A stretch of 44,111 nucleotides of DNA from Ignavibacteriales bacterium. GTDB lineage: Bacteria > Bacteroidota > Ignavibacteria > Ignavibacteriales > Melioribacteraceae. Of the stretch, positions 1-4,695 are shown in pieces; positions within the stretch are counted from its first letter, which is position 1, and each line of letters starts with the position of its first letter. Under the pieces are notes generated by a model. The model was not told the DNA's origin. It searched no databases and worked only from the letters and a program-made list of their open reading frames with translations. The stretch is from NCBI GenBank assembly GCA_016936095.1, contig JAFGPR010000104.1, positions 1 through 44,111 of the forward strand, in the 5' to 3' direction. A program made the position numbers and the translations under genes.

Positions 1-1719
1 AAGACTTTACTCGAGAGAATACTAGACTCTGTTACTAAAAATGATATCAATAAAATAGTAATAGTAATTGGTTATAAAGGTGAAAATGTTGTTAAGCTTA
101 TAGGTGATAGATATAATAATACACCCGTAGAATATGTGAATAATAAAATATATGATAAAACAAATAATATATATTCATTATATCTTGCTAAAGATTATTT
201 AACATCAGATGATTCGATATTGTTTGAGAGTGATTTGGTGTTTGAGGATAAAATTGTATCAAATCTTTTAAGCAATCCATTCCCAAATCTTGCAGTCGTC
301 GCGAAGTTTGAACCTTGGATGGATGGAACAGTTACAACTATTGATGATGATAATTTGATAACTGGATTTATTCCTAAATCACAAATGAAATATAAACGGG
401 TAGATAAATATTATAAAACAGTGAACATTTACAAACTATCAAAAGAATTTTGTGAAAAATCTTTTGTCCCATTTCTTACAGCATATACAAGATCAATGGG
501 TGATAATGAATATTATGAGCAAGTGCTACGGGTAATTACATTTATTGAAAAGCAATCACTTAAAGCTTATCCTCTAACAGACGAAATATGGTATGAAATT
601 GATGATATTCAAGATTTAAATACTGCAGAGCTTCTTTTGGCGGATGAAGATAAAGTATTGGAATTATATCAGAAGAGATGGGGAGGATATTGGCGTTTTC
701 CCAAACTGCTCGATTTTTGTTATTTAGTGAATCCATATTTTCCTACAAAAGAAATGGAATTAGAAATAATGCGTAGTTTCTCCCATTTACTGCATAGCTA
801 TCCATCTGGTATAAATGTACAAAATCTTTTAGCTGCAAAAATGTTTGATTTAGATCAAGAAAATATTGTTGTTGGTAATGGTGCCGCTGAATTGATCAGA
901 TCTTTAATGAATAATTTAGATGGTACATTTGGAATTTCTTCTCCGACATTTCAGGAATATCCTAATAGATTACAGAAAGAAAGAGTAAAGTATTTTAAAC
1001 CATTTATAATTTCAAATAGTCCATTTTATGGATTTAAAGAACTTGAGATGATAAGCAAGGAAGTAGATAATGTAATCTTAATAAATCCCGATAATCCATC
1101 TGGCAATCTCGTCCGGAAAAATGATGTAATTCGATTAATTGAAAACTTGAAAAAACAGAATAAGCGACTTATTCTTGATGAATCATTTATGGACTTTGCC
1201 GAAAATTCAAGTGACGAATCTTTACTGAACTATGATTTGGTTAAGAAATATAACAATCTCATTATTGTTAAAAGTATAAGCAAAAGTTATGGTATTCCAG
1301 GATTTAGATTAGGAGTAATCATATCTAGCGATTTGGAAGTCATTTCTAAAACCAAAGGTGATGTTTCAATTTGGAATATCAATTCTTTTGGAGAATACTT
1401 CATGCAAATCTTTGGCAAGTATCAAAAAGATTATATTAATTCGTGTAAATTGATTCGTGCTGAAAGGGATAGTTTCTTTGAAAAATTAAAGTGCATAAAA
1501 TTTTTAGAAGTATTTCCTTCCCATGCAAATTATTTTTTATGCAGGGTAAAAGAAAAGTTCACTGCGACAGAATTAACAAAGTTATTACTGACTAAACATA
1601 ATATTTTTATTAAAGATTTAACCAATAAACCCGGACTAGAAAAAGGAGAATTTATTCGTATTGCAGTTAGGAATACATCCGATAACAATACTTTAATAAA
1701 TATTCTTTTAGCTTTATAA
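1..1719 (+). CDS. LicC/PntC-like cytidylyltransferase fused to class I/II aminotransferase (5' partial)
   Basis: The reading frame is open from base 1, so the N-terminus, including the nucleotide-binding GxG loop, lies outside the window; 572 residues are visible. The GTG at 136 is internal, because nucleotidyltransferase sequence (KIVIVIGYKGE) lies upstream of it in frame. Visible residues 1 to about 210 resemble choline-phosphate/aminoethylphosphonate cytidylyltransferases (NNIYSLYLA, FESDLVFED, WYEIDDIQDL). From about 225 to the end it is a HisC/CobD-like PLP aminotransferase: VVGNGAAEL, NPDNPSGN, LILDESF, and the PLP lysine in SISKSYG (codon at 1282). The likely role is to make and activate with CTP a small amino-alcohol phosphate or aminophosphonate such as 2-aminoethylphosphonate. 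A CDP-alcohol transferase lies 305 bases downstream, which fits transfer of the activated group to a lipid. Known PntC enzymes support the first half; the actual substrate is inference. A threonine- or serine-phosphate decarboxylase activity of the second half is an alternative. Confidence 0.8.
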   Translation, partial: KTLLERILDSVTKNDINKIVIVIGYKGENVVKLIGDRYNNTPVEYVNNKIYDKTNNIYSLYLAKDYLTSDDSILFESDLVFEDKIVSNLLSNPFPNLAVVAKFEPWMDGTVTTIDDDNLITGFIPKSQMKYKRVDKYYKTVNIYKLSKEFCEKSFVPFLTAYTRSMGDNEYYEQVLRVITFIEKQSLKAYPLTDEIWYEIDDIQDLNTAELLLADEDKVLELYQKRWGGYWRFPKLLDFCYLVNPYFPTKEMELEIMRSFSHLLHSYPSGINVQNLLAAKMFDLDQENIVVGNGAAELIRSLMNNLDGTFGISSPTFQEYPNRLQKERVKYFKPFIISNSPFYGFKELEMISKEVDNVILINPDNPSGNLVRKNDVIRLIENLKKQNKRLILDESFMDFAENSSDESLLNYDLVKKYNNLIIVKSISKSYGIPGFRLGVIISSDLEVISKTKGDVSIWNINSFGEYFMQIFGKYQKDYINSCKLIRAERDSFFEKLKCIKFLEVFPSHANYFLCRVKEKFTATELTKLLLTKHNIFIKDLTNKPGLEKGEFIRIAVRNTSDNNTLINILLAL

Positions 1720-1723
1720 GAAA

Positions 1724-2023
1724 ATGAGCGGATTACGTATATTAAATATTTTATTATTTATTATTCTCTTGGGGATATTTTTTTTAATTCTGGGTATAAT
1801 TACAAGCGGTGTTTTTTTCACTGAAACATCAGCAAATGAATTTAGAGTAATTGGAACAGTACTTATTGGAGCTTTGGTTGGCGCTATTGTAGGTGTTTCA
1901 ATATCTTTATTTTTTTCTTTCTTTTTGAAAGAAGAAACAATGTTTAAAATTTCGTTTATTAGTTTAGTTGGATGTTTAGTATTAATTATTTTATTAAAAT
2001 TGACAAATATGAAAGCTTTTTGA
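1724..2023 (+). CDS. small membrane protein, unknown function
   Basis: A 99-residue protein with three predicted membrane segments, at about residues 7-28, 41-67 and 75-93, separated by short polar stretches (FTETSANEF, KEETMF). It starts 4 bases after the fusion gene stops and ends with TGA one base before the next ATG, so it is almost certainly co-translated with both neighbours. I do not recognise a family. The position between a head-group activating enzyme and a CDP-alcohol transferase suggests a membrane accessory role in the same lipid pathway, but that is context only. The overlapping minus-strand frame is a shadow. Confidence 0.65.
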   Translation: MSGLRILNILLFIILLGIFFLILGIITSGVFFTETSANEFRVIGTVLIGALVGAIVGVSISLFFSFFLKEETMFKISFISLVGCLVLIILLKLTNMKAF

Positions 2024-2024
2024 T

Positions 2025-2912
2025 ATGAATATAGTAAAGCAATATATTGCCTCACTTAAAAATATAGAAATTGAAGAAGTTGCTGATCTCATATTCTTCA
2101 GACCAATCGCAATTTTTTTTGTAAAAGTATTTTATTTATTGCCTATTACACCAAATCAAATCAGTTTTATCTCCATGCTTTTTGGAATATCTTCGGGAGT
2201 ATTTTTAGCTCAAGGTACGAAAGAAAGCTTTTTAATCGGGGGTATATTAGTTCTTCTGGCTCAAGTAATTGACTGCTGCGATGGAATGATCGCACGCTTG
2301 AAAAAGAATGGAACTAAAACAGGAAGAATAGTTGACGGAACTGTTGATTATATTACAACAATTTCTATTTATGTGGGTTTAGGAATTGGACTGACTAAAT
2401 TAGTAGATGAAAAGGTTATTGATTTACCGATGCATGCTTGGTTGTTAGTTCTTTTATATGGAGTCTTTAATTTTATTCATGCAATATTCACAGACAAATA
2501 CAGAAACAGATTTGAATCTTATGTCTATAAAAAATCTCTAGATCCTGAATCTCAAATAAAAGAATTTGAAGATGAACTTGGAAGGCTTAAAAATATTAAG
2601 GGGAATTATCTAGATAAATTTTTAATAAGTGCATACCTTAAATATACAAAAATCCAATCTGGAAAAACGAAAAAAGAAATATTTGATTATGATACTCATA
2701 AATATGCTAAAGCAAATCGAGTGATGGTACTTCTTTGGAATTTTATTGGCCCCTCAGAACATATTTTTGTATTCGGAATATCTATGATTTTATTTCAACA
2801 AATGATATTTTTCTACTTTATGGTAATCTTTTCAAACGTTTGGTTAGTAATTTTATTAATAATTCAACTTATAATTGATAAGAAATTGAAAAAATATCAG
2901 ATAAGTGTTTAA
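2025..2912 (+). CDS. CDP-alcohol phosphatidyltransferase family membrane enzyme
   Basis: A 295-residue integral membrane protein with the complete family signature D-x2-D-G-x2-A-R-x8-G-x3-D-x3-D at residues 83-108 (D83, D86, G87, A90, R91, G100, D104, D108), which binds metal and the CDP-activated substrate. Hydrophobic segments lie at about 25-65, 70-82, 110-160 and in the last 60 residues. A charged cytoplasmic stretch sits at about 170-225. Enzymes of this fold move a phospho-alcohol (or phosphonate) between CMP and an alcohol or lipid acceptor. The ATG lies one base after the stop of the small membrane gene. With the upstream cytidylyltransferase fusion it probably forms a head-group attachment pathway. 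Whether it uses a CDP-lipid or a CDP-head group cannot be read from the sequence; the upstream activating enzyme favours CMP-activated head group plus lipid acceptor. Confidence 0.85.
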   Translation: MNIVKQYIASLKNIEIEEVADLIFFRPIAIFFVKVFYLLPITPNQISFISMLFGISSGVFLAQGTKESFLIGGILVLLAQVIDCCDGMIARLKKNGTKTGRIVDGTVDYITTISIYVGLGIGLTKLVDEKVIDLPMHAWLLVLLYGVFNFIHAIFTDKYRNRFESYVYKKSLDPESQIKEFEDELGRLKNIKGNYLDKFLISAYLKYTKIQSGKTKKEIFDYDTHKYAKANRVMVLLWNFIGPSEHIFVFGISMILFQQMIFFYFMVIFSNVWLVILLIIQLIIDKKLKKYQISV

Positions 2913-3021: not shown

Positions 3022-4695
3022 ATGAAAAAACTCATTTTACTCTTTTTAATTTGCTTAATTTCTATTTCTTATGCTCAGGAAAATCCAGTTTATTTCAAAG
3101 CATACTACCCAGAATTTATTCCTGTTAATACAAATTTTGATATATCTATAGTTAGTAGAATTCAGTATACAAATGCTGATAGAGTAATTTTTTATATTCT
3201 AACGGATGATGCGACAAATCTGGAAAGTGTATTATTCAAAAATCTTAAAATTAATAAGCAGGTTAAACATCAGATTGTCACATATAAAAAAAGATCAGAA
3301 AAATGTTATTCATTCTATTTTGATTTAAAAGATACTACTTATGACCTTTCTAGAACATTTCAATTATTACTAAATCTTTCTTCCAGAACTTTAGATAATG
3401 GAAATATTTCATTTGCTATAGAAATTGAGGAAGAGAATGATTCTATTGTGTCTTCAATATCTTCATTTGATAAAAATGGGAGCTCGTTACCTACAATTAA
3501 ATTAAATTATTATACTCCTCAATCTATTGCTGGCAGTTTATTACAGGTCGAAAAAAATGGTTTTTTAAAATTAAATTTTAATAATAAAGAAAATATCAAT
3601 AATCTTCTACTAAGTTTTTGGTGCAATCCGCCCATATTTTCTAGATCATTTTTTAATATTACAAACTCGCAGACAAATGAAACTATTATTAATCTTTCCT
3701 CAAATGAATTTCAAACTATCACTTCAAATGAACCTGAAGGATATAAACTTAATGCAAATCAAATTATAAGCAAAAACACATGGATTCATTTTTCGTTATT
3801 TTTCAATACTTCTAATAAAAAAATAGAGGTTTATGCAAATGACAAAATATTATTTACAATTCCTCTTGAACTAAACTTAAATTTAAGTAATTTAGAATTT
3901 GAATTTGTTAATAATGAAGATGAAAAACTTCAAATAGATTTATTGAAAATTTGGAAATTTGAAAATTCTCTCGAACAAATTTTTTTGAACAAACACTATA
4001 ATTCATTTCAAGCAGATAGTTCAAAATTATTATTTGATTTAAATTTTGACAGCGAAATTTCATTTAATAATAATTCAAACGGAAAAACATTTATTCTTAA
4101 AGCGGAAAGAACTAAAATATCCAAATCTGATGCACCGATATTTTCCAAAGCGCCTGAATTAAATGTAAATATTTACGAGAACTATTATCAACTGGAATGG
4201 AAAGTGTTGGATTTAAATAGTGCAGTACGAATTATGGTAGAAAAATCTACTGATGGTAAATCATATAAGGAAATTGGACAGGTATTTGTTTCAAAAAATA
4301 AAGAAGAAATTTATAATTTCGTTGATGCAAAAACTCTTGAGGATAATATAATTTACTATAGAATTTGTCAGATAAACAATGATGGCAGTAAAACTTATTC
4401 AGCACAAATGAAGATCGGCCAAGGTGAAAAGAAAAAATTTATCCTTCGCCAAAATTACCCAAACCCTTTTAATCCTATTACAACAATATATGTTGAAATA
4501 ATCGAGAGCACAGAGATAGAATTATCAATTTATAATTTATCAGGTAAAAAAATAAGTACTCTTCATAAGGGAACTCTTGGTGCAGGTAATCATGGTTTTA
4601 AATTTGATGGCTCAAACTTACCTTCTGGAATTTATCTTTATGAAATAAAATCTCCGACGGCATCAGTTGTCCAAAAAATGATACTAGCAAAATAA
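3022..4695 (+). CDS. secreted LamG-like protein with T9SS C-terminal sorting domain
   Basis: A 557-residue exported protein. A signal peptide occupies residues 1-18, with a KK charged start, a hydrophobic core and SYAQE at the cleavage region. Residues about 175-320 look like a concanavalin/LamG-type beta sandwich (FLKLNFNN, SFWCNPP, WIHFSLFFNTSNKKIEVYAND). Residues about 375-465 look like a fibronectin-III-like repeat (YYQLEWKVLD ... IIYYRICQI). The last 80 or so residues are a type IX secretion sorting domain (LRQNYPNPFNPITTI, SGIYLYEIKS), which routes proteins across the outer membrane for release or surface anchoring. No catalytic motif is visible, so it may bind carbohydrate or serve structurally. 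It is a lone gene with its own candidate promoter and a possible terminator after it. The sorting domain is certain; the LamG call is by pattern only. Confidence 0.8.
   Translation: MKKLILLFLICLISISYAQENPVYFKAYYPEFIPVNTNFDISIVSRIQYTNADRVIFYILTDDATNLESVLFKNLKINKQVKHQIVTYKKRSEKCYSFYFDLKDTTYDLSRTFQLLLNLSSRTLDNGNISFAIEIEEENDSIVSSISSFDKNGSSLPTIKLNYYTPQSIAGSLLQVEKNGFLKLNFNNKENINNLLLSFWCNPPIFSRSFFNITNSQTNETIINLSSNEFQTITSNEPEGYKLNANQIISKNTWIHFSLFFNTSNKKIEVYANDKILFTIPLELNLNLSNLEFEFVNNEDEKLQIDLLKIWKFENSLEQIFLNKHYNSFQADSSKLLFDLNFDSEISFNNNSNGKTFILKAERTKISKSDAPIFSKAPELNVNIYENYYQLEWKVLDLNSAVRIMVEKSTDGKSYKEIGQVFVSKNKEEIYNFVDAKTLEDNIIYYRICQINNDGSKTYSAQMKIGQGEKKKFILRQNYPNPFNPITTIYVEIIESTEIELSIYNLSGKKISTLHKGTLGAGNHGFKFDGSNLPSGIYLYEIKSPTASVVQKMILAK

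Follow-up and report, generated by a model that had tools for sequence, protein, structure and literature searches.

Here, we describe a three-gene cassette with a predicted role in lipid head-group synthesis at the start of contig JAFGPR010000104.1 (C168) in the genome of an Ignavibacteriales bacterium of the family Melioribacteraceae (assembly GCA_016936095.1). The window, meaning the whole 44,111-nucleotide stretch that was analysed, begins at the first base of this contig; the genome comprises 317 contigs and is 78% complete. Three open reading frames (ORFs) lie on the forward strand, separated by 4 and 1 bases. ORF1 (positions 1-1719, 572 visible amino acids) is open at its 5' end, where the contig starts, and joins an N-terminal LicC/PntC-type (MobA-like) cytidylyltransferase domain (1-690, truncated) to a C-terminal fold-type I pyridoxal phosphate (PLP) enzyme of the CobD/SMUL_1544 type (691-1719), a putative O-phosphoserine-type decarboxylase. 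ORF2 (1724-2023) encodes a 99-residue membrane protein with three hydrophobic stretches and a presumed accessory role, and ORF3 (2025-2912) a 295-residue cytidine diphosphate (CDP)-alcohol phosphotransferase (PF01066, catalytic motif at 2271-2348). Judged from complete relatives, about 30 N-terminal residues of ORF1, the GxGxR loop among them, lie outside the window; the missing 5' end was sought in the other contigs of the genome, where only other nucleoside triphosphate (NTP) transferases matched. A sequence-only reading of this DNA had recognised the LicC/PntC-like and HisC/CobD-like fusion followed almost without gaps by a small membrane protein and a complete CDP-alcohol transferase, and the domain matches given below, the short gaps and the intact ORF3 motif bear this out. 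The three-gene operon is real.

The arrangement recurs well beyond this genome. At least 558 relatives were found when 84,980 species genomes were scanned, and the best 80, ranked by similarity to locus L006, were analysed; the counts of loci given here hold for this sample rather than for the whole family. These relatives come from many bacterial phyla and also from archaea. A CDP-alcohol phosphotransferase is the next same-strand gene in 62 of the 80 (median gap 2 bases; the contig ends at this point in 4), and the order of cytidylyltransferase, PLP enzyme and CDP-alcohol phosphotransferase is therefore not due to chance; the head-group idea of the earlier reading holds. The cytidylyltransferase and PLP enzyme were counted as separate genes in 69 loci, one of which (L015) is a fused gene interrupted by a contig end, and as one fused gene in 11. 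Among the loci that have no adjacent CDP-alcohol phosphotransferase, several have LicD (PF04991) or a phosphotransferase of the CDP-glycerol type (PF04464) instead, often in a cell-surface glycan cluster. What the relatives' loci share is an enzyme for which a CDP-activated alcohol is the substrate. Closely similar forms of the cassette are spread over many bacteria and some archaea, and a limited literature search found no experiment on any close relative of it.

Two further features were seen among these loci. At L010:1284-3894 (genome G584, from the family of the window), the cytidylyltransferase and PLP genes lie in one frame with a stop codon and 27 bases between them, and this unfused cassette, of a large clade, continues with a pssA-like CDP-alcohol phosphotransferase. 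An ATP-grasp gene stands near the cassette in 17 of the 80 loci (L049, L029, L058 and 14 others), usually directly after the CDP-alcohol phosphotransferase, and its product may attach an amino acid to the head group.

The cytidylyltransferase half of ORF1 was assigned partly through complete relatives, whose N-terminal domain matches LicC (1jyk, 1e-12) and the fused PntC-AEPT (6pd1, 5e-10) and falls into the Pfam families NTP_transferase/NTP_transf_3. Most complete relatives have the GxGxR...PK nucleotide loop, and its position in ORF1 lies upstream of base 1. The TNN, KTVNIY and EIDD motifs are conserved in the visible part of ORF1, which shares 39% identity over 103 residues with the PntC half of a PepM-PntC protein encoded elsewhere in the same genome.

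The PLP half points to a decarboxylase. Its SxSK lysine (K428 in SISK, bases 1282-1284), NPxNP and DE[SA]F motifs and fold-type I PLP fold are all present, and Pfam assigns Aminotran_1_2 (PF00155, 1.5e-31). Residues ~234-569 score best among NCBIfam models on TIGR01140 CobD (169 bits, cutoff 290.6), with TIGR01141 HisC at 147 bits (cutoff 277). SMUL_1544 itself reaches 174 bits on TIGR01140, likewise under the cutoff, so this cutoff excludes an O-phosphoserine enzyme too, and ORF1 was not filed as CobD. By sequence, the best Protein Data Bank (PDB) match is 6oux (E 2.4e-40), titled 'SMUL_1544, a decarboxylase', followed by 3ftb and Salmonella CobD 1lc5. A plasmid search also retrieved a gene of Sulfurospirillum with the annotation 'norcobamide biosynthesis serine-O-phosphate decarboxylase', the translation of which equals the 6oux sequence letter for letter across the displayed alignment; the PLP half is 33% identical to this enzyme. 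The top-ranking folds for an AlphaFold model of ORF1 (pLDDT 88) are 3ftb, which its depositors named HisC, 6oux and CobD 1lc5/1lc8, ahead of the remaining HisC structures. ORF1 and SMUL_1544 share DxCYLxNPY (DFCYLVNPY and DACYLSNPY), where the CobD and HisC rows differ, CobD being of SINP/NINP type, and IWNIN of ORF1 resembles LWNIN of SMUL_1544. From these similarities we infer an O-phosphoamino-acid decarboxylase that most likely acts on O-phosphoserine (Ser-P).

ORF3 matches PF01066 at 1.2e-12, and its catalytic motif DCCDGMIARLKKNGTKTGRIVDGTVD at residue 83 gives a complete DxxDGxxARx(7-10)GxxxDxxxD signature. The nearest fold to its model (pLDDT 85) is the AF2299 CDP-alcohol phosphotransferase, with CEPT1 far lower in the list. 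ORF3 would thus belong to the enzymes that move a phospho-amino-alcohol from a CDP donor to a lipid hydroxyl; its gene context suggests a CDP-amino-alcohol donor, as used by EPT, over CDP-diacylglycerol. Fourteen relatives from the same class, 31-40% identical, lie mostly in cassettes with PLP and cytidylyltransferase genes. A HisC-like PLP gene, an ORF3-type CDP-alcohol phosphotransferase and a LicC-like cytidylyltransferase were seen together at L140, L141, L142, L147, L148, L149 and L150, several of them with a LysE-type translocator. No family above its cutoff was found for ORF2, which has a match to HlyIII below the cutoff only; comparable cassettes of class relatives include a LysE-type translocator. 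The next gene downstream begins at 3022; its product carries a type IX secretion tail, and it does not obviously belong to the ORF1-ORF3 unit.

Read jointly, ORF1 would be a bifunctional enzyme yielding a CDP-amino-alcohol, most likely CDP-ethanolamine, ORF3 would transfer the head group, and ORF2 would be an accessory membrane protein; we consider this pathway probable. The substrate decarboxylated by the PLP domain would be O-phospho-L-serine, in free form or, as in FrbH of Streptomyces, after cytidylylation, and the N-terminal domain would place cytidine monophosphate (CMP) from cytidine triphosphate (CTP) onto the phospho-compound, for an overall conversion of Ser-P and CTP to CDP-ethanolamine. 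ORF3 would take the phosphoethanolamine-type group off the CDP donor and attach it to an alcohol group of a membrane lipid; the resulting amino-phospholipid would be made de novo, in the manner of the Kennedy pathway and without phosphatidylserine as an intermediate. The sequence directly shows the order of the genes, their domains and motifs, and the relatives with their neighbouring genes, whereas the preference for Ser-P over O-phosphothreonine (Thr-P), the order of steps, the lipid acceptor and the product are what we infer. Decarboxylation is favoured because the PLP half has a Ser-P decarboxylase as its best PDB match, because most genomes with relatives are without phosphoenolpyruvate (PEP) mutase (PepM), and because of the FrbH-like architecture and the CDP-alcohol phosphotransferase that so often comes next. 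Decarboxylation of Ser-P or Thr-P had been an alternative in the sequence-only reading, and with SMUL_1544 as nearest PDB match it becomes the better one.

Several points weigh against this pathway. The C-terminal Arg common to SMUL_1544, CobD (R323, counted from the alignment) and HisC is Lys538 in ORF1 and its counterpart in most relatives, so substrate contacts would differ from those three enzymes; as a speculation, the Lys fits a changed phosphate contact, for example to a CDP-linked substrate. Sequence does not distinguish Ser-P from Thr-P as the substrate here. FrbH, the sole characterised fusion of this architecture that was found, has a phosphonate as its substrate, PEP mutase accompanies the rhizobial relatives (three records), whose PLP clade is separate in the tree, and the genome itself carries a CMP-2-aminoethylphosphonate (CMP-AEP) operon on contig C156. 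It also has a pair of a CDP-alcohol phosphotransferase gene and psd, presumably pssA-psd, so that bulk phosphatidylethanolamine (PE) could be made without CDP-ethanolamine. A role as sole PE route was rejected, as psd is present in this genome and in 36 of 46 genomes with the module, and the product is therefore probably some special lipid or a separate pool of PE and not the only source of PE.

The phosphonate genes raise the question of a second donor. The operon on C156 (C156:32017-35859; L093:6018-9860) encodes PepM-PntC with EDKIFPKTNS, Ppd and a class V AEP transaminase (AEPT), and no CDP-alcohol phosphotransferase lies beside it; in the family-mate G410, an ORF3 orthologue (37%) directly adjoins PepM-PntC, Ppd and PntC-AEPT. 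Within the class, ORF3-type transferases thus occur together with donor enzymes of either kind, and ORF3 may accept both donors and also make an aminophosphonolipid, drawing CDP-ethanolamine from ORF1 and CMP-AEP from the C156 operon into mixed phospho- and phosphono-lipids. A dedicated transferase may be missing from a genome that is 78% complete, and we think this extension, which is compatible with the Ser-P pathway, somewhat unlikely.

A phosphonolipid operon proper, in which ORF1 itself acts on a phosphonate, as an AEP aminotransferase or by FrbH-like decarboxylation, and ORF3 makes an aminophosphonolipid, fares worse. The C156 operon, the phosphonate links of FrbH and of some rhizobial PLP relatives, and the G410 locus all speak for it. 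The C156 operon, however, is already complete for AEP and CMP-AEP and includes a class V AEPT and a PntC of its own; since it makes and activates AEP, ORF1 is not needed there. PEP mutase scored above cutoff in 5 of the 47 genomes that hold relatives, this one included, which is not significantly higher than the class background of 10 in 197 (Fisher p 0.18); the 42 genomes without it include those of Treponema and Campylobacterales from the clade of the window, and the 2.1-Mb Fusobacterium record, which carries a fusion, lacks it too. ORF3 orthologues of the class occur in PLP and cytidylyltransferase cassettes of genomes without PepM, and only 1 of the 14 genomes with such orthologues, G410, has it. 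Compared with the class V AEPT of this genome, the PLP half gave no significant match (best E 0.04), and on this comparison it is not an AEP transaminase (PhnW, class V). The check for phosphonate genes upstream, proposed with the sequence-only reading, runs into the contig start inside ORF1, and the PepM of this genome lies on another contig. The sequence-only idea that ORF1 pairs AEP activation with a class I/II AEP aminotransferase is not supported, given the same E value, the PDB match and the 42 genomes without PepM. A phosphonate reading of ORF1, and with it the phosphonolipid operon, is unlikely. PEP mutase and class I/II PLP enzymes were found on the same rhizobial plasmids at L106, L110, L111 and L113, with PEP mutase near CDP-alcohol phosphotransferase genes in L106, L110 and L113 and LicC-like cytidylyltransferases in L106 and L113; these are possible phosphonolipid or phosphonate loci.

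Decarboxylation of Thr-P, for an (R)-1-amino-2-propanol head group, would agree with CobD as best NCBIfam model, but the Ser-P enzyme SMUL_1544 scores similarly on that model and is the closest in sequence among solved structures, and we judge a Thr-P substrate improbable. More doubtful still is a true aminotransferase, HisC-like or converting dihydroxyacetone phosphate to serinol-phosphate, with serinol or a similar alcohol being activated: the fold family and the HisC-like Pfam and NCBIfam matches agree with it, and Cj1437 makes serinol-phosphate in Campylobacter capsule synthesis (PMC12409886), but the best characterised neighbours in sequence and structure are decarboxylases, and E. coli HisC has PYPLS at the position of IWNIN. 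Of a choline and an inositol version, the first agrees with the LicC-like cytidylyltransferase half, but de novo choline would require methyltransferases, and these occur in only some of the relatives; the second was rejected, with ORF3 at 50 bits on the archaetidylinositol-phosphate synthase model (cutoff 180) and the PLP partner left without a role.

In a tree of PLP domains, the window groups (100/98) with sequences from Ancylomarina, a Campylobacterales metagenome-assembled genome (MAG), Treponema and Fusobacterium vincentii, a clade that spans four different phyla. SMUL_1544 stands beside this clade, weakly (94/69) and with long branches; the S. meliloti PLP row and HisC are also long branches, which were left uninterpreted, and the tree holds no FrbH sequence. 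The neighbouring genes are CDP-glycerol-type transferases in Ancylomarina, a methyltransferase, a CDP-alcohol phosphotransferase and LicD in the Campylobacterales MAG, a glycan cluster in Treponema and LicD in Fusobacterium vincentii; the Fusobacterium fusion is 46% identical. Within the window's own class, the module was found in 3 of 391 genomes (matches over both halves, own genome included), and this rarity suggests acquisition by lateral transfer.

On plasmid pBM700 of Priestia megaterium (L103:2444-10548), a fusion of the ORF1 type is accompanied by an AAC(3)-type acetyltransferase, a protein resembling Lys/Orn N-oxygenases, two ATP-grasp genes and an additional DXR; PEP mutase was absent from the plasmid, which was searched without the chromosome of the strain. 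Fosfoxacin is a naturally occurring phosphate congener (isostere) of fosmidomycin (PMC9782300), and pBM700 is a candidate fosfoxacin/fosfocytocin biosynthesis cluster with DXR self-resistance. The gene set is as expected for fosfoxacin, which would need an ethanolamine-phosphate precursor, and lends support from outside lipids to the proposed ORF1 reaction.

More broadly, we tentatively suggest, as a possibility that we would not yet lean towards, an undescribed and widespread prokaryotic route from Ser-P, possibly through CDP-serine, to CDP-ethanolamine, which would feed dedicated CDP-alcohol phosphotransferases or LicD in bacteria and archaea beside PssA/Psd, as a Kennedy pathway starting from serine-phosphate. 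A literature search within a limited library and set of terms turned up no account of bacteria making CDP-ethanolamine from Ser-P. If the route is real, hundreds of genomes from many bacterial phyla and several groups of archaea (Methanosarcinales, Nanoarchaeota and Thermoplasmata) would carry a compact amino-alcohol head-group pathway, hidden in current annotation as 'aminotransferase' or 'histidinol-phosphate transaminase'. It would account for CDP-ethanolamine without ethanolamine uptake, and one enzyme family would tie lipid to glycan decoration and hint at how the phosphate antibiotic fosfoxacin is made.

Among known systems, FrbH is by description the closest in architecture, with a MobA-like cytidylyltransferase and a CobD-like PLP domain in one chain. 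The phosphonate 2-amino-4-phosphonobutyrate is the CH2 isostere of O-phosphoserine. FrbH, in the FR-900098 pathway of Streptomyces, both cytidylylates and decarboxylates this compound; it is reported to cytidylylate the amino-acid phosphonate (PMC6697681) and to yield CMP-3-aminopropylphosphonate (PMC8007912). It serves an antibiotic pathway with PepM, whereas ORF1 pairs with a CDP-alcohol phosphotransferase and its relatives are mostly without PepM. SMUL_1544 resembles the PLP half in identity, DxCYLxNPY and fold, but is a stand-alone enzyme of a cobamide pathway and has Arg at the position of K538. PntC-AEPT of Treponema denticola (6pd1) also fuses a LicC-like cytidylyltransferase to a PLP enzyme, which there is a class V AEP transaminase, whereas that of ORF1 is class I/II; LicC shares the cytidylyltransferase domain but has no PLP domain and uses phosphocholine. 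Cj1436 of the Campylobacter jejuni capsule converts Ser-P to ethanolamine-phosphate for cell-surface decoration (PMC12409886), but the product is used for amidation with no cytidylyltransferase step. The Kennedy pathway (ECT/EPT, CEPT1) has the same logic of a CDP-amino-alcohol and a lipid alcohol; in the proposed route, ethanolamine-phosphate would come from Ser-P decarboxylation and not from a kinase, and the cytidylyltransferase and transferase are of prokaryotic families. What would be new is the variant that joins the FrbH architecture, a Ser-P decarboxylase and a CDP-alcohol phosphotransferase, and its wide distribution makes it of interest.

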